Shown: piece after piece, positions 3,328 to 42,800 of the stretch
Position numbering within the stretch: the stretch's first letter is position 1
How the letters are laid out: every line of letters starts with the position of its first letter
DNA from: Gammaproteobacteria bacterium
Lineage (GTDB): Bacteria; Pseudomonadota; Gammaproteobacteria; Ga0077536
Assembly (NCBI GenBank): GCA_016191285.1
Contig: JACPPA010000013.1
Coordinates: 1-64,000, forward strand
Length of the DNA stretch: 64,000 bases
Reading direction: 5' to 3'
Notes under the pieces: generated by a model
The model's database searches: none
Told to the model about the DNA's origin: nothing
The model's input: only the letters and a program-made list of their open reading frames with translations
Position numbers and translations under genes: made by a program

Positions 3328-3726
3328 CGATCAAGCGTGCACAGACAGACGAATAGTGAATGGGCACGGTGCTTTCTTGCCCCAACGTAGTGCATCGGAG
3401 CGTTTTGGATTTGTTCATGCAGTAACTCTGCGAAACGGTCGGAGCAGGCGCGATCACGAACAACGCTTGCGAAAATACGTGCACGAATGTAAGGCACTCG
3501 GACTCACAATGTGTAGCTTGATTTGTGGCGCCCGGACGTGTTACTAACTCGTCGTATAACGAATACGGACTTCGCCGCGATATCGAGATAGACGTAGTGA
3601 AAGAGTTCGGATTAATTAACATCAAGTAGCGGACATGGCTTGGTAGCGGAGCGCGTCGACAGCTCATTATTGAGGTGAAGGCGAATATTTTTTGACAACG
3701 TAAATACATCGAGAAGGAAAATTGAA
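3328..3726. other. Intergenic region, no gene recognised
   Basis: There are short open frames in several directions, but none has a convincing start, ribosome site or recognisable motif. The right part is AT-richer and holds an FNR-like palindrome (listed separately) and a purine-rich ribosome site (AGAAGGA) ahead of the gene at 3727. Confidence 0.5.
3612..3625. promoter_or_regulatory. Possible FNR-type box (one mismatch)
   Basis: TTAATTAACATCAA matches the FNR consensus TTGAT-N4-ATCAA at nine of ten positions. Its centre is about 108 bp before the start of the secreted protein at 3727, whose paralogue at 9262 has a clear symmetric box 78 bp upstream. The greater distance and the mismatch make this weaker than the other boxes in the island. 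Confidence 0.35.
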
Positions 3727-4095
3727 ATGAAGGAATCTGCAAAAGTACTCGTTCTAAGTAGCGTTTTGGCAATCGGCACACTGATATCGCCAATCTCATA
3801 TAGCGATATGGACGGACATGACCTAGTCGCAAACGCCGTGGCAAACGCAAAGACGAAAGCCGATCATGAGGCGCTTGCCAGTAATTTTGAAAACGAAGCC
3901 GCGGTGACGAAGGCGAAAATAATGGAACACCGCAAAATGTCGCAATCCTACCGGGCCCTTGGACCGAGCAAAGGACCCGCGGCAGGCTTTGTGGGCCATT
4001 GCGATAACTTGATCGCAAAGGAGGAAGAGGTCGCGAAGGACCTTGGTGAACTTGCGAAATTGCACCGGCAATTAGCGGCGGAGGCTGCGAAGTAA
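3727..4095 (+). CDS. Small secreted helical protein (paralogue of the one at 9262)
   Basis: This 122-residue protein has a signal peptide (about 1-26, ending near SPISYS). The mature part is charged and predicted helical, DHEALASNFENEA..., with an EHRKMSQSY motif and then a G-F-x-x-H-C-D motif holding the only cysteine. It aligns with the 109-residue protein at 9262 over its length: D-H-x-x-x-A, E-A-x-x-x-K-x-K-I-x-E-H-R-x-M, HCDxLI, and an L-x-x-L-H terminal helix. Such proteins are probably periplasmic helical hairpins. Function is unknown, but a stress or low-oxygen role is suggested by the neighbouring FNR/FixLJ genes. A purine-rich ribosome site precedes the ATG. Confidence 0.7.
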   Translation: MKESAKVLVLSSVLAIGTLISPISYSDMDGHDLVANAVANAKTKADHEALASNFENEAAVTKAKIMEHRKMSQSYRALGPSKGPAAGFVGHCDNLIAKEEEVAKDLGELAKLHRQLAAEAAK

Positions 4096-4236: not shown

Positions 4237-4406
4237 GGGCCAAGATTGCGCATCTTTCCCGGCATTTCAGCTTAAGTAAGCGCCATTCGCATCAGACGGC
4301 TGGTTTCCAGCGCGGATTAGGGTTTACGTTCCACGGACTCGATGACTTAAATGGCGATTGATTTTGGCGGATCACTCACCGTAAGCGGCATCACATGGAG
4401 GACAAA

Positions 4407-4824
4407 ATGGCGACATCGGATCAGCGCATCAAGGCAAACGGCTCGGCTATCGCAACGGTTTTCAATCCGGCCCAAGAGACCCGCGGCCGTTTCGTCCTCG
4501 ACAACGACGGAATAATCGCCGGTTGCGACGCCGGCTGTGAACAGTTGTTTGCCGCTCCAGAGAGGGAACTAGTCGGCTGGCATATATCCAAGCTTCGTAC
4601 CTAAGCTGGCCGCGACGCGCGCCACAGACGACTGGCTCAACCCAACCGCCCTCTTCCTCAGTCACTGCGATATCCCGTTCCGCACGCGACGGGTAGATGG
4701 CATGCCATTGATGAGCGCGCCGTACTTTCGTCGATTCATGCCGGGCAACCTGCCACGCATCACCGTACTCGTACGCAGACTTGACTTGCCGCGGTCTGGG
4801 AAAGCTGAATGGTGCCTGGAATGA
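4407..4824 (+). pseudogene. Small PAS-domain protein, frameshifted
   Basis: The reading frame begins at ATG 4407, five bases after a GGAGG ribosome site (an ATG at 4395 is also in frame), and encodes a PAS-like N-terminus with FVLDNDGIIAGCD and LVGWHISKL. It stops at 4602-4604 after KLRT. In the next frame the protein continues at once as PKLAATRATDDWLNPTA, then ALFLSHCDIPFRTRRVDG..., to a stop at 4822-4824. Removing one base near 4595 gives a continuous protein of about 138 residues with K-L-V-P-K-L at the joint. This is a single-base frameshift, real or an assembly error. The gene precedes fnr and may have served as a redox or oxygen PAS sensor. Confidence 0.65.
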
Positions 4825-4993
4825 AGCGGTGAAACCCCAACCTGCGGCAGCACCGATGGCCTGCGTTCCAGAATGCGCCATCCGTATTTTCCGATCTCGT
4901 TCTACGCGTATCCGCGGATATTCTACGGCCCTGCTGCACTGGACAATCCCTCTCGACACAACAGCCACAAATTTCACACGCGAGGGATCGATT

Positions 4994-5740
4994 ATGCATA
5001 ACGTCATTTTATTTCCGCCGATCGCCGCCAACTGCTCTAACTGCCGCTGGTCGGGGTTCTGCTTCGCACAGAATCTAGATTCGGTCGCACTCGCTGAATT
5101 CTCGCGGCAGGTGATTCATAGCGGTCCGATTAGACGCGGTAATACGCTTTTCCGACAGGGCGATAAACTCAAATCCCTCTATGTGATCCGAGCCGGATCG
5201 GTGAGGACCTATCTCGACAGCGAAGACGGGTGCGAGCAATCGGTCGCATTCCTATACCCAGGTGACCTGCTCGGCTTCGACGCGGTTGCGGAAAACCGCC
5301 ATCCGACCACGGCGGTTGCCCTTGAGACGACCGCATACTGCGCGATTCCCTATGACCGTGTGGTCGCGCTCGCCGGCAAGTTCCCGGGCTTGTGGCACGG
5401 AGTGATACGCACAGCCGCCGCCCAAGTGACGGCGGGCCAAAATCACGTGCTGCTGGTGGGACAGAAATCCGCACCGGCACGGTTGGCGAAGTTCCTGCTG
5501 TGTCTGTCTGAAGGATTCGTGACGCGCGGCTGTTCCAGGACTGAATTCAACCTAAGCATGTCGCGCCAGGAGATCGCGAATTACCTGGCCGTGGCGGTCG
5601 AAACCATTAGCCGGCTGTTCAGCGATCTGCAGCGCCGTGGCGTAATTGCCGTTGACCGCCGGTTTGTGCAGATACTGTCGCTGCCGGCCTTGCAGGAACT
5701 CGCCTGCGACAGCGCGCAACTCAGAACCCGCACTGCTTGA
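4994..5740 (+). CDS. fnr: FNR-type oxygen-sensing transcription regulator
   Basis: A 248-residue protein is read from ATG 4994, preceded by a weak GAGGG ribosome site. An open extension upstream lacks family similarity. C14, C17, C23 and C116 have the same spacing as the [4Fe-4S] ligands C20, C23, C29 and C122 of E. coli FNR. A cyclic-nucleotide-like beta-roll (about 35-130) and dimer helix (about 135-165) precede the helix-turn-helix, whose recognition helix contains VETISR (202-207). That helix is identical to the E. coli FNR residues that read TTGAT. FNR dimers bind DNA only without oxygen. Matching boxes lie at 9177, 9927, 14955, 15086 and 16216, so this is probably the local regulator. 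Its stop overlaps the start of the pseudo-receiver gene. Confidence 0.92.
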   Translation: MHNVILFPPIAANCSNCRWSGFCFAQNLDSVALAEFSRQVIHSGPIRRGNTLFRQGDKLKSLYVIRAGSVRTYLDSEDGCEQSVAFLYPGDLLGFDAVAENRHPTTAVALETTAYCAIPYDRVVALAGKFPGLWHGVIRTAAAQVTAGQNHVLLVGQKSAPARLAKFLLCLSEGFVTRGCSRTEFNLSMSRQEIANYLAVAVETISRLFSDLQRRGVIAVDRRFVQILSLPALQELACDSAQLRTRTA

Positions 5741-6162
5741 TTCTGAACCATCGCCCAAAGGTCAGTGTTGTGGGAGAGTCGCGCGCAACGATCGTAATTG
5801 TGAACGGCGACGAGGCAGAGTGCGCTCGCCTTGCCGGCATCGCAGATGCGGCCGGCTATCGCGTTATAGTGGTGACCGCGCGCGAGGCGTTGCAACGCCT
5901 CGCGCCACCGCCGCGTACGGTGCTCGTGATCGACAGCGATATCGACGAGAAAGCGGACTATAGCCTCGGTCTCATCGATGCGCTGCATGAGCGCGGTGTC
6001 TATCTCCCGACCCTGGTCACGATCCCGCCGTTTGGCATCACCGACGCCGTCAACGCGATCCGCCGCAACGCCACCGACATCCTCGAGCAGCCGCTCGCGT
6101 CGAGCCGTTTCCTACATTCGATCGATGCCGCGTTGCAGAAGAAACACCGTCCGGCAGTGTAG
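5737..6162 (+). CDS. Pseudo-receiver (FixJ-like REC domain without the lysine)
   Basis: A 141-residue protein is read from TTG 5737, which overlaps the fnr stop codon; GTG 5770 is an alternative start. It has receiver-domain order: an acidic start VNGDE (22-26), strand LVIDSDID with D66 at the phosphoacceptor place, and DAVNAIRRNATDILEQPL, which mirrors the FixJ helix alpha-4/beta-5 stretch. The otherwise invariant Lys of the K-P motif is Gln118, and the acidic pocket is reduced to one Asp-Glu pair. Normal phosphorylation is therefore doubtful. It is coupled to fnr and converges with fixJ, and may modulate either. This role is inference. Confidence 0.6.
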   Translation: MILNHRPKVSVVGESRATIVIVNGDEAECARLAGIADAAGYRVIVVTAREALQRLAPPPRTVLVIDSDIDEKADYSLGLIDALHERGVYLPTLVTIPPFGITDAVNAIRRNATDILEQPLASSRFLHSIDAALQKKHRPAV

Positions 6163-6325
6163 TGCAAGTGGTCGAGGAAGCTGTCGGTGCGCGCAGCAGT
6201 CACTGGAGACCGACAGCGCGGCATTTTCGGGCTTTTCGGCATGCGAGAACGCACGCCATCGTCGCGCTTCCTCAGGATGGATAACCAATGCCGATCGGTT
6301 CGACTTGATCCTCACTAGCTGTTTG

Positions 6326-6985
6326 CTAACAGTCGCCTATGACTTTGGCCTTCAGCTCCAGGCGCAACATCTGCTGGGCCAGTTGCGCCACGCCACGTGC
6401 CTTCATCTTTTCGAGGATATGCGCGCGATGGACTTCCACCGTTCGCTCGCTGAGGTTGAGATCGATGGCCAACACTTTGTTGGCCGCGCCGGATGCGAGC
6501 CGCTGTGCGATCTCGCGTTCGCGTACGGTTAGCGTTTCGTAACGTTGGCGTAATTCAGCCACCTCGTGCAGCAGCTTGCGTTGACTAGCGTCGATCGCCA
6601 GCGCGCGGTTCACCCGGCGGATCAACTCGTCGTCGTTGAAAGGTTTCTGCAGAAATTCCACCGCACCAGCACGCATGGCTTCCACCGCCATCGGGACATC
6701 GCCGTGACCGGTGATGAAAATCACCGGCAGACGCCAATCGCGCCGTTTCAGCTCCCGTTGCAGGTCAAGCCCACTCATGCGCGGCATGCGGACGTCTAAC
6801 ACCAAGCAGCCGATTTGTGCCGGGTCATAGTCATCGAGGAAGCTGCGCGCATCTTTAAAGGTCTGTGCAGGTAGACCCACCGAGCGCATCAAGAGCGCAA
6901 CGCTATCACGCACCGCTTCGTCGTCGTCGACAACAAACACCGTGCCGGACGGAATCTGTTCACTTTCTTCATTGTCGGGGTGCAT
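6326..6985 (-). CDS. fixJ: FixJ-family response regulator
   Basis: This 219-residue protein is an N-terminal receiver followed by a LuxR/GerE helix-turn-helix. The receiver (about 15-130) has the acidic triad D20-D22, phosphoacceptor D64 in LVLDVRMP, the threonine in FITGHGDVPMAVEAM and the K-P lysine in LQKPF. The C-terminal LTVREREIAQRLASGAANK and SERTVEVHRAHILEKM are the FixJ DNA-binding signature. It follows fixL with a 9-bp gap and forms an oxygen-responsive pair with it. In rhizobia phosphorylated FixJ activates fixK and nif/fix genes; here the likely targets are in the surrounding low-oxygen island. No FixK-like gene other than fnr is visible. Confidence 0.9.
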   Translation of the reverse strand: MHPDNEESEQIPSGTVFVVDDDEAVRDSVALLMRSVGLPAQTFKDARSFLDDYDPAQIGCLVLDVRMPRMSGLDLQRELKRRDWRLPVIFITGHGDVPMAVEAMRAGAVEFLQKPFNDDELIRRVNRALAIDASQRKLLHEVAELRQRYETLTVREREIAQRLASGAANKVLAIDLNLSERTVEVHRAHILEKMKARGVAQLAQQMLRLELKAKVIGDC

Positions 6986-6994
6986 CGCGGCTCC

Positions 6995-8521
6995 CTACTC
7001 ACTAACGATCGGCAACTGGATCACAAATTCGGCACCGCCCGTGCTGGCCAGTCGGCAGCTGAGGTTTCCGTCCATTGCGGATACGATGGATTTACAGATC
7101 GACAATCCGACTCCCATGCCGCGCGGTTTGGTGGTAAAGAAGGGCTCGAACAGACGCTCTTCCACCTCGGGTGTCAAGCCTGGGCCCGTGTCAGACACGA
7201 CGATCTCTACATAGCCGTCTACCTGAACAGAAGTCGTGACCGTCACTGACTCACCCTGTGCACCGTCCTTCATCGCCTCCAGGGCATTGCGGATAAGATT
7301 TAACACAACTTGCTGAAACTGCACGCCGTCGCCGAAAACTTTCGGTAACGTCGGATCGAGCTCCAGTAGCAGCTCGTGTTCGCTAAAGCGCAGCTCGAAC
7401 TCGATCAACCGCGATACCTCTTGGATCAGCGCATTACAGTCTAATTTGACACGTTCGGTCTCACGTCTGCGCGTGAGCTTGCGGAGGCCGTGTATTACCT
7501 GTCCGGCGCGGACGGCCTGAGCGCTGATCTTCTCTAAAGTCCCAGCTACTTCCATCGGATCGGCGCGGCCACTCTGCAGAAAACGCTTTACAGCGTTGGC
7601 ATAGTTGGCGATGGCCGTGAGCGGTTGGTTCACTTCATGCGCAATGCCGCTGACCATCTCGCCCAGGGTGCCAATCCGACTCACGTGCGCCAATTGCGCG
7701 CGGAGTTCTTCTGCTTCGTGCTCCGCGGCGAACAGCGCGCTGCGATCGATGATCTGACTCACCATCAACCGAGGTTGGCTGTCGGTATTGCACACGGCAC
7801 CGGCGTAGATCATCGCGTGGATCTCCTGCGCGTCTCGCGAGTGGAAGCGGACATCGCGTCTAAAGCTCTCACCGGTGTGATAGAGCTTGTGGATATCCGA
7901 AAGTAACGATTTGCGATCATCTTCCGCCACCAACGTCCGGACCAGGTCTTCCTGCGACTGGCCGGCTAGCGCCTCGATGGAATAGCCGAGCAGTCTTTGG
8001 AAGGCGGGGTTAATGCGGACGAGGCGTCCATCAATGTCGGTAATGGCGATCGCCGTCGGAGTGCTTTCAAGGATCAACCGCAGCTCTTCGCTGTTCTTGC
8101 GCAGCGCGTCTTCCTGACGCTTACGTGCGGTGATGTCGCGAATGATACCGACAAATCCATGCTCGCTGCCGCTCTTGAACTCGCCGACCGACAACTCGAT
8201 CGGAAACATCGAGCCGTCGCGCCGCCGCGCAATGACTTCACGACCGATGCCGATGACGTGCGGCTGTGCGGTGCTCAGATAACGTTGCAGGTATTGATCG
8301 TGCTCGTCGTGATAGGGGTTCGGCATCAGCATTTTGACGTTGTGCCCCAGGATCTCCGCGGCAGTGTAGCCGAATAGACGCTCGGCGGCCGGGTTAAAGC
8401 TGGTGATACGACCCGCGCCATCGATCACGACCATCCCATCGACGGCGGCGTCCAACAGCGCGCTCAGGCGGTCATGGGACGGGTGTACGGGGGAAGTTTC
8501 TTTTAAGCGTGAATCTCGCAT
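6995..8521 (-). CDS. fixL: FixL-type heme-PAS oxygen-sensor histidine kinase
   Basis: The protein has 508 residues: PAS-1 (about 20-135), PAS-2 (145-265), HisKA with H295 in GIAHEVNQP, and HATPase with DTGPGL and PRGMGVGL boxes (about 390-505). PAS-1 carries the FixL heme pocket. H74 in DEHDQYLQRY corresponds to the proximal histidine of Bradyrhizobium FixL (H200), H88 to H214, and R94 in GIGREV to R220, the oxygen-state switch residue. This marks a direct oxygen sensor rather than a generic PAS kinase. No membrane segments are seen, so it is cytoplasmic. It is transcribed with fixJ. Confidence 0.92.
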   Translation of the reverse strand: MRDSRLKETSPVHPSHDRLSALLDAAVDGMVVIDGAGRITSFNPAAERLFGYTAAEILGHNVKMLMPNPYHDEHDQYLQRYLSTAQPHVIGIGREVIARRRDGSMFPIELSVGEFKSGSEHGFVGIIRDITARKRQEDALRKNSEELRLILESTPTAIAITDIDGRLVRINPAFQRLLGYSIEALAGQSQEDLVRTLVAEDDRKSLLSDIHKLYHTGESFRRDVRFHSRDAQEIHAMIYAGAVCNTDSQPRLMVSQIIDRSALFAAEHEAEELRAQLAHVSRIGTLGEMVSGIAHEVNQPLTAIANYANAVKRFLQSGRADPMEVAGTLEKISAQAVRAGQVIHGLRKLTRRRETERVKLDCNALIQEVSRLIEFELRFSEHELLLELDPTLPKVFGDGVQFQQVVLNLIRNALEAMKDGAQGESVTVTTSVQVDGYVEIVVSDTGPGLTPEVEERLFEPFFTTKPRGMGVGLSICKSIVSAMDGNLSCRLASTGGAEFVIQLPIVSE

Positions 8522-8689
8522 CTAGGCTGTTCGGCGAGCCCGTTCGGGGTAACGCCACTATGTGGGAATACTGCCGGACGGGGTGTGGAGAGTAAAGGAT
8601 CACGAGCATTACAACGAAACCAAGCGGACGAATTATTTCTCTTGAATTGTGGATAGGCAGGCCAATATCGCGAGGATTCGCCCTCGGAT

Positions 8690-8957
8690 AATCGAAGAAC
8701 TGGATCGTGTGTACCCGCATGTCGTGCCAGGTGTCGGCACTGAGCGCGCGCAGCGCCGCTAGCTTCTGCCGCGCGATCGCGCTTTTCTCGGCAAGTGCTG
8801 CAATCTATTCGTGCAGTTCGGCGCTGAATTTGTCGCGCGTGTTCTTAGTCGCGACCGTGATTTCGTCGATGCGTTGATCCCATTCGTGGAGTGGGCCTTC
8901 GAGTCGTCGAAGCACTGATTCTTTTTCATCCGGCGTGTTTTGGATGCCGGATTACGT
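8690..8957 (-). pseudogene. sll1863-like coiled-coil stress protein, degraded
   Basis: The minus strand encodes LRRLEGPLHEWDQRIDEI, then TKNTRDKFSAELHE, a TAG stop at 8805-8807, then IAALAEKSAIARQKLAALRA and SADTWHDM. The pattern of a short charged coiled coil followed by a D-x-W-x-x-M segment matches the small sll1863-type stress proteins, often found in general-stress regulons. The internal TAG sits where Gln would be expected (H-E-[Q]-I). The frame is also closed upstream by a TAA at about 8955 with no usable start codon between. Two lesions make it a relic. The frame stays open beyond the homology toward 8472. Confidence 0.5.
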
Positions 8958-9049
8958 TGACGATCAGGCCCCTTGTGTAAGCCCTGACATAAGCTTGTAT
9001 AAGATCGGGATGTCACGCCTTGACGCACGTCACGAAACGATGGGTATCA

Positions 9050-9075
9050 AAGGAATCTGCAAAAGGCAGAGTTTC
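9050..9075. repeat. Dispersed hairpin (copy 1)
   Basis: GGAATCTGC-AAAAG-GCAGAGTTTCC forms a stem-loop. Its reverse complement recurs at 32155-32189 with only a 2-base difference in the core. It lies in the gene-free stretch before the secreted protein at 9262. Confidence 0.6.
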
Positions 9076-9093
9076 CGTGCGACACAGGGCAGT

Positions 9094-9127
9094 CCTCTGA
9101 AAAATCCAGGAGGGACTTATTCAGAGG
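9094..9127. repeat. Inverted repeat CCTCTGAA...TTCAGAGG
   Basis: There is an 8-bp perfect inverted repeat with an 18-bp loop, flanked by GGG/CCC that can extend the stem. It could act as a terminator or transcript-end structure, but no U-tract follows. It lies 50 bp before the FNR box. Confidence 0.4.
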
Positions 9128-9176
9128 TTCCCTAAGTACAATTCGCTGGAAATCGTAGTCAGTTATAAGTAGTTGC

Positions 9177-9190
9177 TTGACCTCGGTCAA
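9177..9190. promoter_or_regulatory. FNR/CRP-family box (TTGAC-CTCG-GTCAA)
   Basis: This is a perfectly symmetric 14-bp site, TTGACCTCGGTCAA, whose centre is about 78 bp before the ATG of the secreted protein at 9262. It deviates from TTGAT-N4-ATCAA symmetrically at position 5. The same box-to-start distance (75-81 bp) occurs for the ion channel and hsp20. Confidence 0.7.
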
Positions 9191-9261
9191 TAAGGATTAG
9201 GTCACCGTGGCGTAGCGTGGACACGGTCTTTAAATCGATGTTGAAATAAAGAGGTCTCGTT

Positions 9262-9591
9262 ATGAATCGCCTGATGAAAGCCACTTTTCTTTCGAGCGTA
9301 TTCGCGCTTGCGTCTCTCGTCACCCCTTTTGCATACAGTGAAGAAACATCGCTCACGACCGCCGCGGATCACGATCGTGTAGCGAACCGTTATGAGTCGG
9401 AAGCAACGGAACTCAAAAGTAAGATTAGTGAACATAGAGGAATGTCTGCGATGTATAGCGGTATGGGCAAATCGTCCAGCGGCTTTACGTCACATTGCGA
9501 TCGGTTGATTCAGGCCTACGAGGCCGCCGCGGGGGAAAGTTCGGCCTTGGCGGATCTGCATCACAAAATGGCAGCGAAACTAAAGAACTAA
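9262..9591 (+). CDS. Small secreted helical protein (paralogue of the one at 3727)
   Basis: This 109-residue protein has a signal peptide (about 1-26, ending near TPFAYS). The mature part contains ADHDRVANRYESEA, a helical charged stretch, SEHRGMSAMYSGM and then SGFTSHCDRLI, followed by a terminal helix ending in HHKMAAKL. A single cysteine sits in the H-C-D motif, as in the paralogue 5.5 kb upstream. It is probably a periplasmic helical hairpin. A symmetric FNR-type box lies upstream, so expression is likely induced at low oxygen. A purine-rich stretch (AAAGAGG) is the ribosome site. Confidence 0.75.
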   Translation: MNRLMKATFLSSVFALASLVTPFAYSEETSLTTAADHDRVANRYESEATELKSKISEHRGMSAMYSGMGKSSSGFTSHCDRLIQAYEAAAGESSALADLHHKMAAKLKN

Positions 9592-9601
9592 CCGCGGTTG
9601 A

Positions 9602-9868
9602 GCAGCGTTGCGCGTTCAGGTCACGCTCGTTGAGGGCGACTTGCGTGGGGCCGCGATCGACCGTGCGTTATCTGCTGCGACGATCGCGAATAGACAGCAG
9701 AATCTGACTTTCGCGTTGGTATATAACGCGCTCGGCGTACCGCTCGTGGGCGGCATCCTTGATCCGTTCACCGGCTGGTTGTTTTCACCGATGATCTCGG
9801 CCGCTGCGATGAGCTTGAGCTCGGTCTCCGTGAACTCGAACGCTTTGCGTTTGAAAACTATTCCATGA
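9602..9868 (+). pseudogene. Copper-type P1B ATPase (CopA), C-terminal fragment
   Basis: The open frame encodes [36 protein letters not shown], then [16 protein letters not shown] and NALRLKTIP. These are the last about 85 residues of copper-transporting P1B ATPases: the post-hinge T-L-V-x-G-D-L segment, transmembrane helix with YNALG-P, and the M-S-S-x-S-V metal-site helix. The front of about 700 residues, including metal-binding and phosphorylation domains, is missing and there is no proper start. It is a deletion relic next to a decayed DedA-PAP2 gene. A working copper exporter exists elsewhere in the window (CusCBA). Confidence 0.75.
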
Positions 9869-9926
9869 GCGCACGACAACCCGCGCACAGTGCTCTGGAT
9901 GGCAAGTGCCTAGTTGGACAACTCGA

Positions 9927-9940
9927 CTGATCGAGATCAA
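9927..9940. promoter_or_regulatory. FNR-type box (CTGAT-CGAG-ATCAA)
   Basis: The sequence matches TTGAT-N4-ATCAA at nine of ten positions. It lies upstream of the decayed DedA-PAP2-LssY gene and dgkA, and suggests that the now broken gene was once part of the FNR regulon. Confidence 0.5.
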
Positions 9941-10068
9941 GAGCTTCCTCGCGCGTCGGAACCCGCCTGAAGATGGAAAGGGAGAATCTTCTGACCGCTT
10001 GCTTGAAATGTGGCCACTGCGAACCCTGAGAACGTAGTTGAGGCCGAAACAGGGTTAAGTCCAGTGCA

Positions 10069-11439
10069 TTGGACGGAAGCAGTAACTGGCAGGGACGCTA
10101 TTACCGAAGTGAACTACTCTTTCGTTGGTCATTCAGTCGCTATCCGACGCTGCTGGCGCGCTTTGGTGGACCGATCCGACGGGTGCTTCCGGTCGTGGCA
10201 GGAGTCCTTGGTATGCCGCGCGCACGCTTTTACGTAGCCAACATCCTACCGGCGCTCGTGTGGGCGCCGACTTATATCCTGCCTGGCGTCGTCTTCGGCG
10301 CCGCGCGGGGATTGGCGGGCGCTGTTGCGAAGCGTCTTGCGCTGATGATTGTGTTCCTGATTGGCATACCTTTGGCAGCCGGTTGGATCGTCAGGCACTC
10401 CTTCGTTTGGCTGCGACTGCGCCTCAAACATCGCTTCGTGCAACTACAAACTTGAGCGGAAAGTGCGTTCGCTTCGAACAGTTGGTCGTTGCGCGGCATG
10501 GTCGCCGCGCTGCTCGATCCGTCACGCGCGGGATCCCGCCTTCTGTTGCTATTAGCAACGATCTTGCTCGCGGCCACCTGGATTTTCGTCGGTGTTATCG
10601 AGGATGTGCTCACCGGTGAGCCCTTGGTACTCGTCGATAAAGCGGTTTATCACCTACTGCAGGGGCTGCGCACGCCAATTACCGACAGCATCATGATCAC
10701 GATCACCGAATTGGGTGATCCCGCGCTCACGCTGCCGCTGATCGGAGCCGTGCTGCTGTGGTTGATCTGGAAACGCGCGTGGCGGGCGGCCTGCCTACTG
10801 GCTCGTCGCGGCGAGTCTCGGCGCTGTGCTCGCGGCCGTTCTTAAAGCGGCTTTCAGTCTGCCGCGCCCGATTCCCCTGTACGACGCCACCCAGGCGTTT
10901 GGTTTTCCCAGCAGTCACGCGGCCATGAGCATTGTGATTTTCGGCTTTCCGGCGGTGCTGTGCGCGCGAACTCTCATTACGCGGTACGCTCTCGCATCGT
11001 TCAGCATGATAGCTGTGCTGGGGTGCCTGGATCGCCTTCTCGCGTGTCTATCTAGGGGCCCACTGGCTATCCGACGTGTTGGGTGGCTTGAGTTTAGGGG
11101 TGGCATGGCTGGCACTGCTCGGCATCGCGTATTTGCAGCGTCCGACGCCTTCGATAGCAGCGCGAGGCCTGCTGGTCGTAGCGACCATTCTGGTTCGACG
11201 CCCGTCGCCCAGCCATGGAATTGCCGCTGCTGCGGCAGGTTCACGATGGTTGCTATGAAGCGCGGGCGTTGATCGCCCCAGTCATGGGTACGACAGACCA
11301 GCGCCTCGTATTGCGTTTGTGGTCAGCAGAAAAATTGTTGCCGACGCGAATTGTCAGGCGGCATGCCGTGCCTGAGTCAGTTAACCAAGAGAGTATCTGG
11401 GATAACACCGTGCTGCTAATCCATCAATTGGATTTCTAG
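10069..11439 (+). pseudogene. DedA-PAP2-LssY fusion protein, multiply frameshifted
   Basis: Pieces of one membrane protein follow each other in different frames. 10069-10455 gives a DedA C-terminal half (RVLPVVAGVLGMPRARFYVAN, then WAPTYILPGVVFGAA). 10489-10845 gives the start of a PAP2 phosphatase (LLQGLRTPITDSIMITITELG). 10826 onward gives FGFPSSHAAMSIVIFG (PAP2 motif 2). Another frame at about 11040-11110 gives SRVYLGAHWLSDVLGG (motif 3). The stretch to 11439 has LssY_C-like RLVLRLW. At least three frameshifts or stops, and loss of the DedA N-terminus, make it non-functional. Intact homologues are about 650-residue bifunctional DedA/PAP2 proteins of lipid recycling. Confidence 0.75.
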
Positions 11440-11441
11440 TC

Positions 11442-11807
11442 ATGAAAAACCAAGCGATCCGGCAGCGGCTTGGCTTTGCGTGGACGGGCATTTCCAAGGC
11501 ATGGCGAAACGAGCGCAGTTTTCGCACTCAGAGCTACTTCGCCGTCGCCCTGTTGGTCGCGCTTCTACTACTGCGGGTGTCAGCAGTCTGGTGGGCGATA
11601 AGTCTCATCATGGCCGTGCTGGTGCTAGCTGCAGAGCTCTTCAACACGGCGCTCGAGGCGCTCATCGACCATTTGCACCCGGATAGCCATCCCGCGATCA
11701 AGACCATCAAGGACTATGCGGCAGGCGCGGTTTTATTGCTAAGCGCAGGCGCGGCGATCGTCGGCGTCGTTGTTCTATTAGTCGCGCTCGGAATTGGAGT
11801 CCGATGA
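11442..11807 (+). CDS. dgkA: Diacylglycerol kinase
   Basis: This 121-residue protein has three membrane helices (about 28-48, 52-70 and 92-118). It carries the DgkA signature AELFNTALEALID, in which the acidic and Asn residues form the active site, preceded by the RNERSFRTQ interfacial helix. DgkA phosphorylates diacylglycerol released by periplasmic glucan or lipid-modification enzymes, recycling it to phosphatidate in the inner membrane. It starts 2 bp after the decayed DedA-PAP2-LssY gene, which also belongs to lipid-phosphate metabolism, so the two were probably one transcription unit. It converges with the P-type ATPase gene. Confidence 0.93.
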   Translation: MKNQAIRQRLGFAWTGISKAWRNERSFRTQSYFAVALLVALLLLRVSAVWWAISLIMAVLVLAAELFNTALEALIDHLHPDSHPAIKTIKDYAAGAVLLLSAGAAIVGVVVLLVALGIGVR

Positions 11808-11845
11808 AGGATCCTACGCCCACCAAGACATTACGCCGTACACAA

Positions 11846-14392
11846 TTATGGATTGTTTCGTTGCCGGGACCGATTCATTGCCTTGTAGAATTCGTAGCCC
11901 TGCAGCCCCACAACGGCGGCCCCGAGGCTCGCGAGCAGATCACCCGGGGTCAATGGCGCAAACTTAAACATGTCGTTCATGCCTGGTACGTAAATCACGC
12001 AGGCTAATCCGACGATAGCGCCGCTTATCAGCCATCCCAGAGCTGGGTTTCGCACCCTCAGCATCGTGATTAGCGAGGCATCCGGTGAACGATTGGCGAG
12101 AATGAGTCCCACATTGCCGAAGACGAGCGTGGCGAAGGCCATCGCTCTCGCGGTGGCTTCCGCTCTTCCATGATCCAGCGCCCAGGCGTAGAGCAGTGCG
12201 ACCGCGAGCAACGCGGTTAATCCCTGCAACAATGCCGTGCTCACTGTTCTCAAGTTGAACAGATGTCCTTCCTTGAGACGGGGCGGGCGCTGCATCAGTC
12301 CCGGTTGTTCCGGTTCCGCTTCGAATGCGATGGAACATGCTGGATCGATCACAAATTCCAGAAACACGATGTGTACCGGATAGAAGATTAAAGGCCAGTC
12401 GAGGAATATGGGGATCAGGGACATTCCCACAATGGGAATGTGCACTGCGAGGATATAGCACATAGCATTGCGAATGTTGTGATAGATGCGTCGGCCCACC
12501 CGTACGGCGCTGACAATCGACGCAAACTCGTCATCAAGTAACACCAACGATGCCGCTTCGCGCGCGACATCCGTACCGCGCCCGCCCATGGCGATGCCGA
12601 TGTGGGCAGCTTTTAAGGCTGGCGCATCGTTCACGCCGTCGCCAGTCATCGCGACGATATCCCCATTCGCTTTAAGGGCTCTCACCAGTCTTAATTTCTG
12701 ATCGGGCGAAACGCGCGCGAAGATATTTGCCGCGTTCACTTGGTGACCGAGCTCAGAGTCGCTTAATTGCGCGATATCATCCCCAGTCAGATGCCGATCC
12801 GGAGAATTTAGGCCGATCTCGCATCCGATAGCTTTGGCCGTTGCGGGATAATCCCCGGTGATCATGACCACGCGGATACCGGCGTGATAGCAATGGGTAA
12901 GCGCCTCGTGAACCGTGGGTCGCACCGGATCCGCCAAACCAAGTAGCCCCAGAAACTCGAATTTAAATGCGGTCTGCTCCGCCGGCCACTGCCGTGGCTC
13001 AGCAGGCGCGCGCGCCACACCGAGCACTCGCAATCCGTCAGCGGCCATCTCATCGACACGTGTTTGTACGCGCTCCCAGCGATCGCGAGACAGCCTGCAC
13101 ACGCTCGCGATCGCTTCCGGTGCCCCCTTCGCCGTGGCCAGTCCATGATGGTTCGGCAGACGCCATGCATGACAATGCACCAGTAATTTTGGCGAGAGCG
13201 CATACTCGCGCTCCAATTTCATCCCTCGCGTATCAATTAGACCGGCGTTCAAAAATGACCGACCCGCATCGTGTAACGCTTTTTCCATTGGATCGAAGGG
13301 CGTTTGCTCGCTCGCGTATATGCTGGTTAATAGGAGCTGCTCAAAGCGCCCCGCGACGGGCCCGACCTGCTTGTCGAGATCGATTCTTTCGTCATCAATC
13401 ACGAGACGCTTCAAAACCATGCGATTCATGGTGAGGGTACCGGTCTTGTCCACGCACAGCACGTTCGCTGCACCGAGCGTCTCGATCGCGGAAATTTGGC
13501 GAGTCAGTACTCGTTCCTTGGAGATACGCCAGGCGCCCAGCGCCAGAAACACCGTAAGCACGACGGGGAATTCCTCAGGCAGGATCGCCATCGCGAGCGT
13601 GATCCCCGCTAGGACTCCATCCAACCACGATCCACGAGTAAGACCGTAGAGAACTACGACGAGCAGACAGAGCGCGAGTCCAATCAGTGCAATCGATTGA
13701 ACAATCTTCGCCGTCTCAAGCTGCAACGGCGATTGCCCTTTGGAAATTCCAGACAGTGCCTGGCCGACCCGTCCGATCTGGCTGGTGGCGCCAGTCGCGA
13801 TAACTTCGCCTAACCCGTGACCGCGCACCACCATCGTTCCCGAAAATACAAACGGCTGATCCTCACCCCCTGCCGCACCGACTTGACGCAAACCGTCCCA
13901 GGCTATTTTGTTCACGGGAACCGACTCGCCGGTCAGCAGCGATTCATCCGCACGCAGATCGCTGACGGTCCACAGCACCGCGTCGGCGGGAACACGATCA
14001 CCCTCTTGTATGACCAGGACGTCACCGCGCACCACCTCACGGCCAGAGATCCGGATCCGTTCACCGTTGCGAATAACAAGAGCGCGCGGGCTCGCGAGAT
14101 CGCGCAACGCCTCCAGCGCTCGCTCGGTTCTGCGTTCCTGATAAATCGTGATAGTCAGGATCACGAATACCGAAGAAAGCAGCACCAAGGCCTCATGCAC
14201 GTTGCCCAGCAACAAATAGATCGCGCCCCCCGCACCGAGCAACAAGAACATTGGCTCGCGCAAAACTTCAAGCGCAATATCTCGCAGGCTTCGGTTCAGC
14301 GGCGACACAAGTTCATTCGAGCCTTCGCGCTGAAGGCGCTCCGTCGCGTCGGCATGGCTCAGACCGTCGAGATTCCGTTGAGTGCGTTCCAA
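11846..14392 (-). CDS. Cation-transporting P-type ATPase (P2/Ca2+-like)
   Basis: This 848-residue protein has an N-terminal cation-ATPase domain, actuator TGES at 154-157, phosphorylation site VDKTGTLT with D315, nucleotide domain with KGAPE, and hinge TGDGVNDAPALKAAHIGIAMG. Six C-terminal hydrophobic helices are visible. The M4 motif reads PEEFP (272-276) in place of PEGLP of classical calcium pumps. That variant is common in bacterial pumps of the PMR1/PacL branch, so Ca2+ or Mn2+ export is likely but not certain. It lies 23 bp after the ion-channel gene, and the pair probably shares the FNR-box promoter at 14955. Confidence 0.88.
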   Translation of the reverse strand: MERTQRNLDGLSHADATERLQREGSNELVSPLNRSLRDIALEVLREPMFLLLGAGGAIYLLLGNVHEALVLLSSVFVILTITIYQERRTERALEALRDLASPRALVIRNGERIRISGREVVRGDVLVIQEGDRVPADAVLWTVSDLRADESLLTGESVPVNKIAWDGLRQVGAAGGEDQPFVFSGTMVVRGHGLGEVIATGATSQIGRVGQALSGISKGQSPLQLETAKIVQSIALIGLALCLLVVVLYGLTRGSWLDGVLAGITLAMAILPEEFPVVLTVFLALGAWRISKERVLTRQISAIETLGAANVLCVDKTGTLTMNRMVLKRLVIDDERIDLDKQVGPVAGRFEQLLLTSIYASEQTPFDPMEKALHDAGRSFLNAGLIDTRGMKLEREYALSPKLLVHCHAWRLPNHHGLATAKGAPEAIASVCRLSRDRWERVQTRVDEMAADGLRVLGVARAPAEPRQWPAEQTAFKFEFLGLLGLADPVRPTVHEALTHCYHAGIRVVMITGDYPATAKAIGCEIGLNSPDRHLTGDDIAQLSDSELGHQVNAANIFARVSPDQKLRLVRALKANGDIVAMTGDGVNDAPALKAAHIGIAMGGRGTDVAREAASLVLLDDEFASIVSAVRVGRRIYHNIRNAMCYILAVHIPIVGMSLIPIFLDWPLIFYPVHIVFLEFVIDPACSIAFEAEPEQPGLMQRPPRLKEGHLFNLRTVSTALLQGLTALLAVALLYAWALDHGRAEATARAMAFATLVFGNVGLILANRSPDASLITMLRVRNPALGWLISGAIVGLACVIYVPGMNDMFKFAPLTPGDLLASLGAAVVGLQGYEFYKAMNRSRQRNNP

Positions 14393-14415
14393 AATATCGG
14401 CAACCTCACTGGATC

Positions 14416-14880
14416 TTAATCGTTCTTCCAGAATCTCTGCATTTCGAGAAATGTGAAGGAGGCTGACCAGGTAATGAGAACGAACCCAGTCAACGCTTCG
14501 GTGCCCGTCAAGAATCGAATCGCACCCGCCGGGATAAGATCGCCAAGACCAAGCGTCGTATAGACGACCGCCGAGAAATAGACCAGATCAAGCAACTCTC
14601 CTCCAGAGCCATGGATCCGGCCAAAACTCCGATCATCCAGCAGCACAAAATACCCGATCCCAAACAGCCAAACCTCTGCAACATGCAGCGCGAGAAGACC
14701 AAAGATAAGCAGTAATATCCGCCGCCGCCGAATGCGGATGTGTAATCTCGCCAACGCGCGAGTAAGCCACGAGAACACTTCGTAGTGCAGTAGGACACAG
14801 GCGAGCACGATAATCCCCGTCACGACTGCAACGACGATATTGTGTCCGTTAAAGAATGCATGATCGGCGGTCATGGACAC
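14416..14880 (-). CDS. Two-pore-helix potassium-channel-like protein
   Basis: This 154-residue protein has hydrophobic segments at about 15-36, 54-80 and 122-145. A pore loop YFSAVVYTTLGLGDLIP precedes the last helix. TLGLGD (109-114) takes the place of the K+ selectivity filter TVGYGD, so ion selectivity may be relaxed. No regulatory domain follows. It is the first gene of an operon with the P-type ATPase. A perfect FNR box centred 81 bp before its ATG predicts induction at low oxygen. Ion-channel/ATPase pairs in such islands are thought to adjust ion balance during anoxia (inference). Confidence 0.8.
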   Translation of the reverse strand: MSMTADHAFFNGHNIVVAVVTGIIVLACVLLHYEVFSWLTRALARLHIRIRRRRILLLIFGLLALHVAEVWLFGIGYFVLLDDRSFGRIHGSGGELLDLVYFSAVVYTTLGLGDLIPAGAIRFLTGTEALTGFVLITWSASFTFLEMQRFWKND

Positions 14881-14954
14881 TTGATATAGGACGGCGCTTA
14901 GTAGTGGCGCTCGATTGACGCCACCACAGTGTGTAGCTTCACTAACCGAGGAAA

Positions 14955-14968
14955 TTGATATAGATCAA
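14955..14968. promoter_or_regulatory. FNR box (TTGAT-ATAG-ATCAA)
   Basis: The sequence matches TTGAT-N4-ATCAA at all ten positions. Its centre is 81 bp before the ion-channel start on the minus strand. The trxC gene on the other side has its own box, so this one is assigned to the channel/ATPase operon. Confidence 0.8.
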
Positions 14969-15085
14969 AGCCCGAAGCACCGCTCGCTTCGATTAGCCTT
15001 TGTCCATTTTCTTCGACAGCGCGTCTGTCGCGGAATCGAACTCCGACGATAAGCTCGACCGTCCAGTTCGCGCCACGCCGCTCGC

Positions 15086-15099
15086 TTGATCGGCGTCAA
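15086..15099. promoter_or_regulatory. FNR box (TTGAT-CGGC-GTCAA)
   Basis: The sequence matches the FNR consensus at nine of ten positions. It lies 66-79 bp before the preferred TTG start of trxC. It is the fourth box of the island with a CG-containing spacer. Confidence 0.7.
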
Positions 15100-15164
15100 G
15101 TGCGGAACCGCTTGCTGTGATTTACTTTAACTTAAACCCATTGTTAAACCGACGAGCTGAGCCC

Positions 15165-15596
15165 TTGCACATTGTCTGCCCGCATTGCCACGTGACGAAT
15201 CGCCTGCCGGACGAGCGTCTCGCTGATCGACCTAACTGCGGAAAGTGCAAGCATCCTCTCTTCAACGCGCTACCGGTCGAACTCGCCGCGACGCATTTCG
15301 ACCGGATGATTCAAGCTACGGACATCCCGGTGGTGGTCGATTTCTGGGCGCCGTGGTGCAGGCCATGTCACGCGATGGCACCGCATTTTGCGGCTGCGGC
15401 GGCCGCGCTTGAACCGCGGGTCCGGTTCGTGAAGGTAAATAGTGACGAGGCACCTGGGATCGCCGAACGCTTCGATATTCGCAGCGTTCCCACACTGGTC
15501 TTGCTTATGAACGGTTTCGAGACAACACGTCAGCCCGGCGCGAGTTCGCGCGAGGCTCTGATCCAATGGATCACTCGGCACATCGGGCCGCAATAA
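15165..15596 (+). CDS. trxC: Thioredoxin 2
   Basis: About 143 residues are read from TTG 15165. An upstream GTG at 15117 is in frame but adds 16 residues unlike the family, whose members begin M-x-I-V-C-P-H-C. The N-terminal zinc-ribbon cysteines are C5/C8 (CPHC) and C25/C28 (CGKC). The thioredoxin fold follows with active site WCRPC (64-68). This is WCRPC rather than the usual WCGPC, which should alter redox potential or partner choice. TrxC is a cytosolic disulfide reductase, oxidatively induced in E. coli; here the FNR box upstream suggests control by oxygen limitation. Confidence 0.88.
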   Translation: MHIVCPHCHVTNRLPDERLADRPNCGKCKHPLFNALPVELAATHFDRMIQATDIPVVVDFWAPWCRPCHAMAPHFAAAAAALEPRVRFVKVNSDEAPGIAERFDIRSVPTLVLLMNGFETTRQPGASSREALIQWITRHIGPQ

Positions 15597-15707
15597 CCTG
15601 AAACTTTTGCCAAGAATTCTCCGGGCCGAGGCACGGCCGCAATGATGACGGTGGAGGCGCCACCCCGCCTGACCAACTCGAGTCCAGGCGGGATGGCGCA
15701 AGGCTTC

Positions 15708-16145
15708 TCAGTTCTTAACCTCGATTTTGCGCGGCTGGGCAATCGCACGTTTGGGGATCTCGATCTCAAGCACACCGTCCTTGCTTGTCGCCTTGATGTG
15801 TTCCGCATCCGCCGTATCGGGCATCGCGAAGCGACGGTAGAAACTGCCGTGTGACCGCTCGATCCGATGATAGCCATTGTTTTTCTCGCGTTTCTCCTCG
15901 CTACGCTCGCCACGGATCGTGAGTGCACCGCTCTCCATCGTAACTTCGATTGCCTCCGGTTTAACACCCGGAATATCAGCCTTGATCAGGAAGCGATTTG
16001 ATTCCTCTTTTATATCGACCAGCGGCATCCAGTTGCTGGTTGCAACATTGCTCGTCTCCAGCTCCGACGTGCCGCGCCACATATCGTTCAACTGCTGTTG
16101 CATGCGGGCCCACAAATCAACCGGTTCGTAACGGGTCAGTGCCAT
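15708..16145 (-). CDS. Hsp20/alpha-crystallin small heat-shock protein
   Basis: This 145-residue protein consists of a short N-terminal arm (MALTRYEPVDLWARMQQQLN), an alpha-crystallin domain from about 40 to 132 (PLVDIKEESNRFLIKADIPG, LTIRGERSEE, SHGSFYRRFAMP, KDGVLEIEIPK) and a C-terminal tail. It lacks a clear I-x-I anchor, having RKIEVKN at the end. Such proteins hold unfolded clients in oligomers without ATP. An FNR-type box lies about 77 bp upstream, so it belongs to the low-oxygen regulon and not only to heat shock. It is convergent with trxC. Confidence 0.92.
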   Translation of the reverse strand: MALTRYEPVDLWARMQQQLNDMWRGTSELETSNVATSNWMPLVDIKEESNRFLIKADIPGVKPEAIEVTMESGALTIRGERSEEKREKNNGYHRIERSHGSFYRRFAMPDTADAEHIKATSKDGVLEIEIPKRAIAQPRKIEVKN

Positions 16146-16215
16146 AGCTAATTCCTTTCATTGTAAGTAGGATTTGTCCGGTAGTTACAACCTACGCGAT
16201 TCGAAGCCTGATTAC

Positions 16216-16229
16216 TTGATCGAGGTCAA
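16216..16229. promoter_or_regulatory. FNR box (TTGAT-CGAG-GTCAA)
   Basis: The sequence matches the consensus at nine of ten positions. Its centre is 77 bp before the hsp20 start on the minus strand. Confidence 0.72.
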
Positions 16230-32154: not shown

Positions 32155-32189
32155 TTAAGGAAACTCTGCCTTTTGCAGAGATTCCTTAA
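32155..32189. repeat. Dispersed hairpin (copy 2)
   Basis: TTAAGGAA-A-CTCTGC, loop CTTTT, GCAGAG-A-TTCCTTAA is a 14-bp stem with one mismatch. It is the inverted counterpart of the element at 9050-9075. It may terminate alkB transcription, but it lies just before the DUF3617 gene. Confidence 0.6.
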
Positions 32190-42111: not shown

Positions 42112-42393
42112 ACCGACTAAGAATCAGCTGTCCAAATTGGTGAAAGCCGCGATGGCTGGCGAAGACGTTGTGATCCCTAGCAACGGCACGCCCCTAGTGC
42201 GCTTGGTTCCTATCACAAACTCGCGCGGACTCCTCGCCTGGGGCAGATTGTGCAAGTATCGGGCGAGCATCGATGCGGCGTTTTCAATCTCGAAACACGC
42301 GAGACAGCGCTGGTCACTGCGGATGCGCGATATATGAAACCGGGTTTTACATTGGGCAATATTGTGAGTTTGGCCGATTGGGGTAACGCATAG
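42112..42393 (+). pseudogene. Fused relic of a Phd-PIN toxin-antitoxin module
   Basis: The first 170 bp are nearly identical to the antitoxin gene at 42561: KNQLSKLVKAAMAGEDVVIP, SNGTPLVRLVPIT, RGLLAWGRL. The upstream start is lost. The sequence then joins a PIN-toxin C-terminus in another frame: ETALVTADARYMKPGFTLGN, IVSLADWGNA, stop at 42391-42393. Most of the toxin gene is deleted. It looks like an old copy of the neighbouring module after an internal deletion. Confidence 0.75.
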
Positions 42394-42560: not shown

Positions 42561-42800
42561 ATGCAGGTCAATATTCTTGAAGCCAAGAATCAGCTCTCCA
42601 AATTGGTGAAAGCCGCAACGGCTGGCGAGGACGTGGTGATCGCGAGCAACGGCACGCCCCTAGTGCGTTTGGTCCCCATCACAAACCCGCGCGGACTCCT
42701 CGCCTGGGGCAAGTTGCGCAAGTATCAGGCGAGCATCGATGCCGCGTTTTCGAGCGACGTTGAGCACGAAGTCGAACGTCTGCTGACGGGGCGTAAATGA
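42561..42800 (+). CDS. Phd/YefM-type antitoxin
   Basis: This 79-residue protein is read from ATG 42561. MQVNILEAKNQLSKLVKAAT, then GEDVVIASNGTPLVRLVPI, is the Phd/YefM DNA-binding fold, and the end DVEHEVERLLTGRK should bind the toxin. It overlaps the toxin gene by ATGA. The decayed paralogue lies 450 bp upstream. Confidence 0.88.
   Translation: MQVNILEAKNQLSKLVKAATAGEDVVIASNGTPLVRLVPITNPRGLLAWGKLRKYQASIDAAFSSDVEHEVERLLTGRK

Follow-up and report, generated by a model that had tools for sequence, protein, structure and literature searches.

Positions 4994 to 16229 of the DNA analysed here (the window, comprising bases 1-64000 of the 215,332-bp contig 50 in a 5.10-Mb, 60-contig genome of a Gammaproteobacteria bacterium) contain genes for two oxygen sensors of different chemistry, namely the haem-based FixL with its response regulator FixJ and an iron-sulfur-type FNR, together with several FNR-box promoters, which raises the question of how the two sensors are connected. 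An earlier note on this DNA had proposed graded control by both. The two chemistries are indeed present in the island, but that proposal needs refining, because a FixJ-type element precedes fnr here and in relatives, and the sensors are therefore probably arranged in series rather than in parallel. Judged from the sequence, we regard as probable a serial two-sensor low-oxygen circuit in which FixL would act through FixJ on fnr and FNR in turn on the FNR boxes, with an iron-sulfur FNR replacing the cysteine-less FixK. Where no family search is mentioned, gene names were assigned by inspection.

The fnr gene (4994-5737, forward strand) encodes a protein with Pfam matches to cNMP_binding, HTH_Crp_2, and Crp. 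Its cysteines 14, 17, 23, and 116 form the CxxCx5C motif and the distal Cys, the E-x-x-S-R recognition helix is present as VETISR, and the alignment to solved FNR chains is free of gaps (E about 1e-50), that to the FixK2 structure being much poorer (E 2e-15), which bears out the earlier claim of four cluster cysteines at E. coli spacing. The steps between the cysteines (3, 6, and 93) are those of E. coli FNR itself. The NCBIfam Fnr model scored 206 bits, under its cut-off of 228, yet ranked first among 14 models, the runner-up being Caulobacter FixK with 94 bits; because we take the Fnr model to represent the enterobacterial type, the protein was assigned by its residues despite this score. 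It was not assigned to FixK, a group without cluster cysteines, although, as far as the sequence can tell, it shares with fixK genes a FixJ site before the gene and linkage to fixLJ. All 18 aligned FNRs of the family, including this one, retain the four cysteines and VETxSR or DETLSR. FNR carries the ligands, and the [4Fe-4S] cluster itself is predicted. Just before fnr (4380-4790), there is a frame-broken remnant of a short PAS protein, and intact proteins of 139-146 amino acids that resemble it by eye occur near fnr at two other loci (L031 and L080) and on contig 32 (L045).

The fixL gene (6995-8521, reverse strand) encodes HisKA and HATPase domains with the phospho-acceptor His295 and a haem PAS that aligns to FixL structures and contains His74 and Arg94, in columns that we take to be those of the haem His and the switch Arg. 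The presence of these two residues, as noted earlier, was thus upheld, and the protein was classed as FixL, with a score of 368 bits to the rhizobial FixL model of NCBIfam (cut-off 850). The adjacent fixJ (6326-6985, reverse strand) matches Response_reg and GerE and scored 224 bits with the NCBIfam FixJ model (cut-off 255); its product was classed as FixJ, containing Asp64, Thr92, Lys114, and a LuxR-type helix-turn-helix (HTH). Both frames are intact although other genes of the stretch are broken.

The candidate FixJ site, to which FixJ~P would bind, is the element TCCGTATTTTCCG (4881-4893, forward strand), located 113 bp before the fnr ATG and followed by a second part, TACGC, at 4903-4907. 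It scores 11/12 on the consensus of its own family and matches 8 of the 10 positions of the published GTAGTTTCCC, and the strict two-part pattern is found at 4884-4907 of contig 50. The family sample comprised 17 matches with at least 41% identity (16 genomes) out of 76 relatives, with seven weaker family matches left out; the relatives in all family counts share ancestry and are hence non-independent. The fnr upstream regions in this family share TACGTANTTTCCG, followed in many by TACGC, and the 12-position consensus reaches at least 9/12 in all 17 FixLJ-linked fnr regions (16 loci of relatives and our own), 101-203 bp before the start, and only 7 before an FNR gene without FixLJ (G001b). Published FixJ motifs include GTAGTTTCCC, GTAMGTAG, and TAAGTAATTTCCCTTA (PMC4999443; this and the other published sources are cited from excerpts). 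The linked genes were compared with 13 unlinked fnr genes of the class, for which FixLJ was checked within 1.5 kb and one of which has a weak FixJ match: GTAGTTTCCC at 8/10 or better was found in 11/17 versus 1/13 (null 4.9%), GTAMGTAG at 7 or better in 7/17 versus 2/13 (null 5.4%), and the 16-base Sinorhizobium meliloti site at 10 or better in 16/17 versus 4/13 (null 12.6%). Across 36 family genomes, the strict two-part element has seven matches, all located before fnr, one of these preceding an N-terminal fnr remnant (contig 32, position 127168). A second form of the element, searched in 369 genomes of the class, has six matches (control, 1), four before fnr or its remnant (G167, G279, G374, and the remnant on our contig 32) and two at unrelated genes.

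Of the 17 family neighbourhoods fetched, 16 have homologues of both FixL and FixJ next to fnr. Among the linked clusters (17), 13 have fixLJ upstream in the same orientation; it is downstream on the opposite strand in our genome, G003, and G016, and divergent in G020. Contig ends truncate the FixL genes of G019 and G024, that of G001 matches in the kinase part only, and the G030 cluster adjoins cbb3 oxidase genes, as judged by reading. The 14 named loci found with the FNR protein are titled Gammaproteobacteria bacterium (9), Klebsiella pneumoniae (2, from metagenome records), Oxalobacteraceae (1), and Vreelandella (2). The two public records titled K. pneumoniae (L031 and L034) carry FixLJ-FNR loci, and their titles look wrong for the lineage.

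In the class sample (369 genomes, at most four candidates scored per genome), FixL at E 1e-70 or better was found in 15 genomes. Ten of the 14 FixL places outside the family were fetched, and six of these contain a cysteine-bearing FNR near FixJ (families f26, f71, and f120 and three members of f133). These loci played no part in building the consensus, and five of the six score at least 10 before fnr (G060, 10; G374, 12; G105, 8; G167, 12; G279, 11; and G154, 11). In Azospirillum lipoferum 4B, FixL and FixJ are accompanied by a short receiver and by a Crp/Fnr protein that lacks N-terminal cysteines and is therefore FixK-like; the element score there is only 8. From an unannotated stretch of S. 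meliloti pSymA, a partial FixL and a Crp/Fnr match of 26% were all that was recovered, and the stretch was not used as a control.

At the output end, TTGAYNNNNRTCAA occurs six times in the window against 0.20 expected, and none of 100 shuffles reached six. Two occurrences (21484 and 47847) lie inside frames and were ruled out as regulatory. The other four are those that had been placed before genes for a secreted protein, a channel/ATPase unit, trxC, and hsp20, and they are real, the hsp20 and channel boxes being conserved as well. The box TTGACCTCGGTCAA (9177-9190, forward strand) is centred 78.5 bp before the secreted-protein gene (9262-9591, forward strand), with TANNNT 22 nt downstream. 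On the reverse strand, TTGATATAGATCAA (14955-14968) is centred 81.5 bp (GTG) or 87.5 bp (ATG) before the start of a two-helix ion channel gene (14416-14880; Ion_trans_2), the first of a unit that continues with a P2-type cation ATPase gene (11846-14392; family searches); no TANNNT is found at 21-23 nt. The box TTGATCGGCGTCAA (15086-15099, forward strand) is centred 72.5 bp before a TTG at 15165, the likely start of the thioredoxin 2 gene trxC (15165-15596, forward strand; 139 bits over a cut-off of 125 with the TrxC model, scanned from 15168), and an alternative GTG at 15117 is only 24.5 bp from the box centre. The hsp20 gene, encoding a small heat shock protein (15708-16145, reverse strand; Pfam HSP20, 89.5 bits), is preceded by a box centred 77.5 bp before its start (16216-16229, reverse strand; TTGACCTCGATCAA on this strand).

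The hsp20 box was found, with at most one mismatch and centred 76.5-83.5 bp before the ATG, in 6/6 copies of at least 71% identity, two of them from our genome, and in 0/9 copies below 55% (16 loci found, one without a start dropped). The channel box, also with at most one mismatch, is present in 4/4 copies of at least 79% identity, our own included (84.5-139.5 bp), and in 0/4 below 46%. For the secreted protein (six of seven loci taken in, one without a match), three relatives were read: a perfect box lies at 73.5 bp in G003, and the other two have none. In 15 promoters chosen and oriented by hand, TANNNT lies 21-23 nt past the box in eight, compared with four at 540 other positions, and therefore the box would lie near -41; TANNNT is also present in three further hsp20 promoters (G003, G004, and G016).

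Genome-wide, TTGATNNNNRTCAA occurs at 39 places and TTGACNNNNGTCAA at 12 (backward control of the latter, 3). Four of these 51 places are in 9177-16229 (expected 0.07) and seven in 110774-126602 of contig 32 (expected 0.16), although the box-rich regions were chosen after the fact and the Poisson values are a guide only. Of the 39 TTGAT places, by reading, 8 have a plausible start 70-105 bp downstream, belonging to clpB, genes for a Met-rich secreted protein and a DNA-glycosylase-like protein, hsp20-2, a usp/transporter pair, the channel, trxC, and hsp20; 25 are inside open frames, and among the remaining six, one is 131.5 bp before a rubrerythrin-like gene. The number of perfect boxes was rejected as a marker of the unit, since genomes with the unit hold 1-17, whereas 59 were counted in a genome that has no FNR match.

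All 13 places in the genome matching HTH_Crp_2 were read. They comprise the island FNR, two CRP-like proteins, six with another helix type (one a short frame), three other HTH kinds, and one broken Crp/Fnr gene; the cysteines together with the E-x-x-S-R helix occur in an intact frame only in the island FNR, none of the 13 is an intact FixK-type protein, and other Crp/Fnr proteins were rejected as binders of the boxes. The broken gene (contig 19, about 60900-61150; L163) runs over several frames, keeps an ETLSR helix, and lies beside the end of a FixJ-like regulator frame; if the break is an assembly error, a second box binder could exist. A second low-oxygen island was found on contig 32 (110,774-135,792; L045 and L171), containing hsp20-2 (82% identity) and genes for a BON protein, cytochromes c, glucan phosphorylase, and cbb3 oxidase, with seven FNR-type boxes and a one-mismatch site upstream of ccoN. 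It also contains an N-terminal piece of fnr ending at a stop codon, before which the FixJ-type element persists, and a C-terminal piece about 10 kb away, and fnr was probably duplicated and then lost there. The low-oxygen island described earlier is thus borne out in its two sensors and FNR-box promoters, but not as one intact island, given the remnants and the second box-rich island.

These features suggest the following sequence of events. When oxygen falls, haem-bound FixL, behaving like other members of its family, would lose O2 and phosphorylate FixJ, and FixJ~P would bind the element 113 bp before fnr and raise its transcription. FNR would become active only if its predicted [4Fe-4S] cluster survives, at still lower oxygen, and would then turn on the channel/ATPase, trxC, hsp20, and secreted-protein genes by binding their boxes, which lie 72-88 bp before the starts. 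On contig 32, its putative targets would be the second hsp20, the BON-domain gene, and, with one mismatch, the cbb3 oxidase genes. Many of the boxes appear to have class II spacing.

Several observations weigh against this circuit. The family itself supplied the sequences behind the 12-position consensus, and the pool from which the null was built (992 of 20,000 random pieces reach 9) included the same loci. On the published motifs, the window element is among the weaker ones, with 8/10 on GTAGTTTCCC and 10/16 on the S. meliloti site, and the latter score is also reached by 12.6% of random pieces and by 4 of the 13 unlinked fnr genes. In the 36 genomes, the strict element and its backward control are equally frequent (7 versus 7), so that the location of the element alone is special, and a claim based on the element's count was rejected. 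Four of the 17 FixL proteins (G008, G027, G032, and G035) lack a haem PAS, no FNR was found in the fetched stretch of 3 of the 10 class FixL loci (a further contig ends first), and G060 has its FNR 1.3 kb away from FixJ, with only 28% identity. Seven of the 15 promoters, including that of the window's channel, lack TANNNT at 21-23 nt, and four family members with the unit (G004, G008, G032, and G035) have one perfect box each. Finally, fnr and fixLJ are convergent in our genome.

This last point, together with the separateness of the two units and the modest score of the window element, would fit sensors acting in parallel, FixLJ on targets of its own and FNR on the box genes, without FixJ control of fnr. 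We consider this unlikely, given that the element stands before every one of the 17 linked fnr genes, with a score of only 7 for the unlinked one, and that all seven strict matches lie before fnr or its remnant and none before another gene. A different possibility is that the FNR cluster is aerotolerant or empty and that FixL is the sole oxygen sensor, FNR then serving in the manner of FixK. Oxygen stability in E. coli FNR can be tuned at positions 24 and 28; here, the residues between Cys17 and Cys23 differ from those of solved FNR and vary within the family, and a comparable gene order, FixL-FixJ-receiver-FixK, exists in Azospirillum. An FNR of low cluster affinity has also been mentioned for Acidithiobacillus (PMC9104804). 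The retention of the four cysteines in all 18 aligned FNRs, including the four whose FixL lacks the haem PAS, makes this quite improbable. These four loci (L081, L082, L084, and L085) still have FixJ and fnr, as well as the FixJ-type element with a score of 9. Least credible, and in our judgement very improbable, is an ordinary ANR/FNR stress regulon with FixLJ as a passenger, in which the boxes work and the FixJ element is non-functional here. The boxes and targets do look typical of FNR/ANR regulons, but the fixLJ frames are intact amid broken genes and, on contig 32, even the remnant of fnr still has the element in front of it.

A further component of the unit may be a degenerate single-domain receiver (5737-6162, forward strand), whose frame overlaps the fnr stop and whose aligned part begins at 5773. 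It has no Pfam match and matches the NCBIfam FixJ model weakly (36 bits). A receiver-like protein follows fnr in 11 of the 17 family clusters and also in families f71, f120, and f133; the conserved Lys is substituted in all 11 family copies and retained in five copies from other families. FixT is a small single-domain receiver that inhibits FixL and, like the protein described here, is tied to a FixLJ-Fnr/FixK unit; the window copy differs in lacking the 4-Cys motif, said to be found only in Caulobacter (PMC7078487). By alignment, the protein is a single receiver and, by analogy, it may conceivably act back on FixL; its identification as FixT proper was set aside.

Two other box-like sites are less convincing. 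The fifth box proposed earlier, CTGATCGAGATCAA (9927-9940, forward strand), has one mismatch and faces only frame-broken remnants, and it was rejected as a working promoter. By eye, these remnants (9608-11440) consist of the end of a heavy-metal P-type ATPase-like gene and a DedA/PAP2-like gene spread over several frames, and they could reflect decay or assembly error. The site TTAATTAACATCAA (3612-3625, forward strand), already described as weak, is indeed so, with A in place of the half-site G and a distance of 108.5 bp to a gene (3727-4095, forward strand) for a paralogue (41% identity) of the secreted protein. The two paralogues have His, Met, and Cys residues in common and match no Pfam or NCBIfam family. 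The protein encoded at 9262-9591 was modelled from two sequences as a helical hairpin (mean predicted local distance difference test score, 78), and a fold search returned only helical hairpins, none at E 0.001 or better, and was left uninterpreted. A 15-base repeat, CTGCAAAAGGCAGAG, at 9057-9071 and 32164-32178 also occurs inside the fnr-remnant region of contig 32 and is possibly a small mobile repeat. At 42170-42216 and 42636-42682, beyond a PIN-domain-like frame (by eye), two FNR-like two-mismatch matches are repeated with the same 33-base spacing, which looks like a duplicated unit. The window yielded no tRNA and no Rfam match at gathering scores.

The serial circuit combines known parts in a new arrangement: FNR, FixLJ, and serial FixL/FnrN control in rhizobia have all been described. 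With the FixLJ-FixK system of rhizobia and Caulobacter, it shares a haem-PAS FixL, FixJ, a FixJ site before a Crp/Fnr gene, and FNR-type boxes in the targets; FixK lacks cysteines, however, whereas the regulator behind the FixJ-type site here has all four (PMC4999443). Some proteins named FixK do carry cysteines, including one from Bradyrhizobium (PMC7713065), so that indirect control of an iron-sulfur regulator by FixLJ may have a precedent in a reported FixLJ-FixK2-FixK1 cascade. The hFixL-FxkR-FixK-FnrN cascade of Rhizobium leguminosarum likewise places a haem sensor and an iron-sulfur FNR in series, but through a FixK intermediate and the regulator FxkR with its K-boxes, fnrN being driven by anaeroboxes (PMC7888657), whereas here, with no intact FixK-type protein among the 13 HTH matches, FixJ appears to act directly on fnr. 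In Burkholderia, FixLJ activates fixK at low oxygen, and the lxa locus contains genes for a heat shock protein, a BON protein, and a cytochrome c, but fixLJ lies away from lxa by gene numbers and lxa has six universal stress proteins (PMC5234846, PMC6127331). The island in 4994-16229 is not of the lxa type, which would have several universal stress proteins, Hsp20, and BON; only Hsp20 was recognized there, and genes for BON, cytochromes c, and an alcohol dehydrogenase are on contig 32 (by reading), with a universal stress protein gene at another place. A literature search covering open-licence papers gave no account of a gammaproteobacterial iron-sulfur FNR controlled directly by FixJ.

For rhizobia, the reasons for maintaining a pair of oxygen sensors that differ in chemistry have been discussed (the section 'Why So Redundant?' in PMC4999443). 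A compact circuit from FixJ to an iron-sulfur FNR would make this question testable, as one promoter and one regulator would set two thresholds. It would also extend FixLJ signalling to Gammaproteobacteria known from metagenomes and tie it to genes for protein repair, ion transport, and thioredoxin. We lean, if only slightly, towards the broader view that an apparently undescribed circuit is common to several gammaproteobacterial families, with an iron-sulfur FNR under the direct control of FixLJ and a haem gate followed by a cluster gate that together would form an AND gate without FixK, and that the haem domain of FixL has been lost in some lineages, leaving FNR as the sole recognizable oxygen sensor of the unit, which would amount to an evolutionary hand-over between chemistries.

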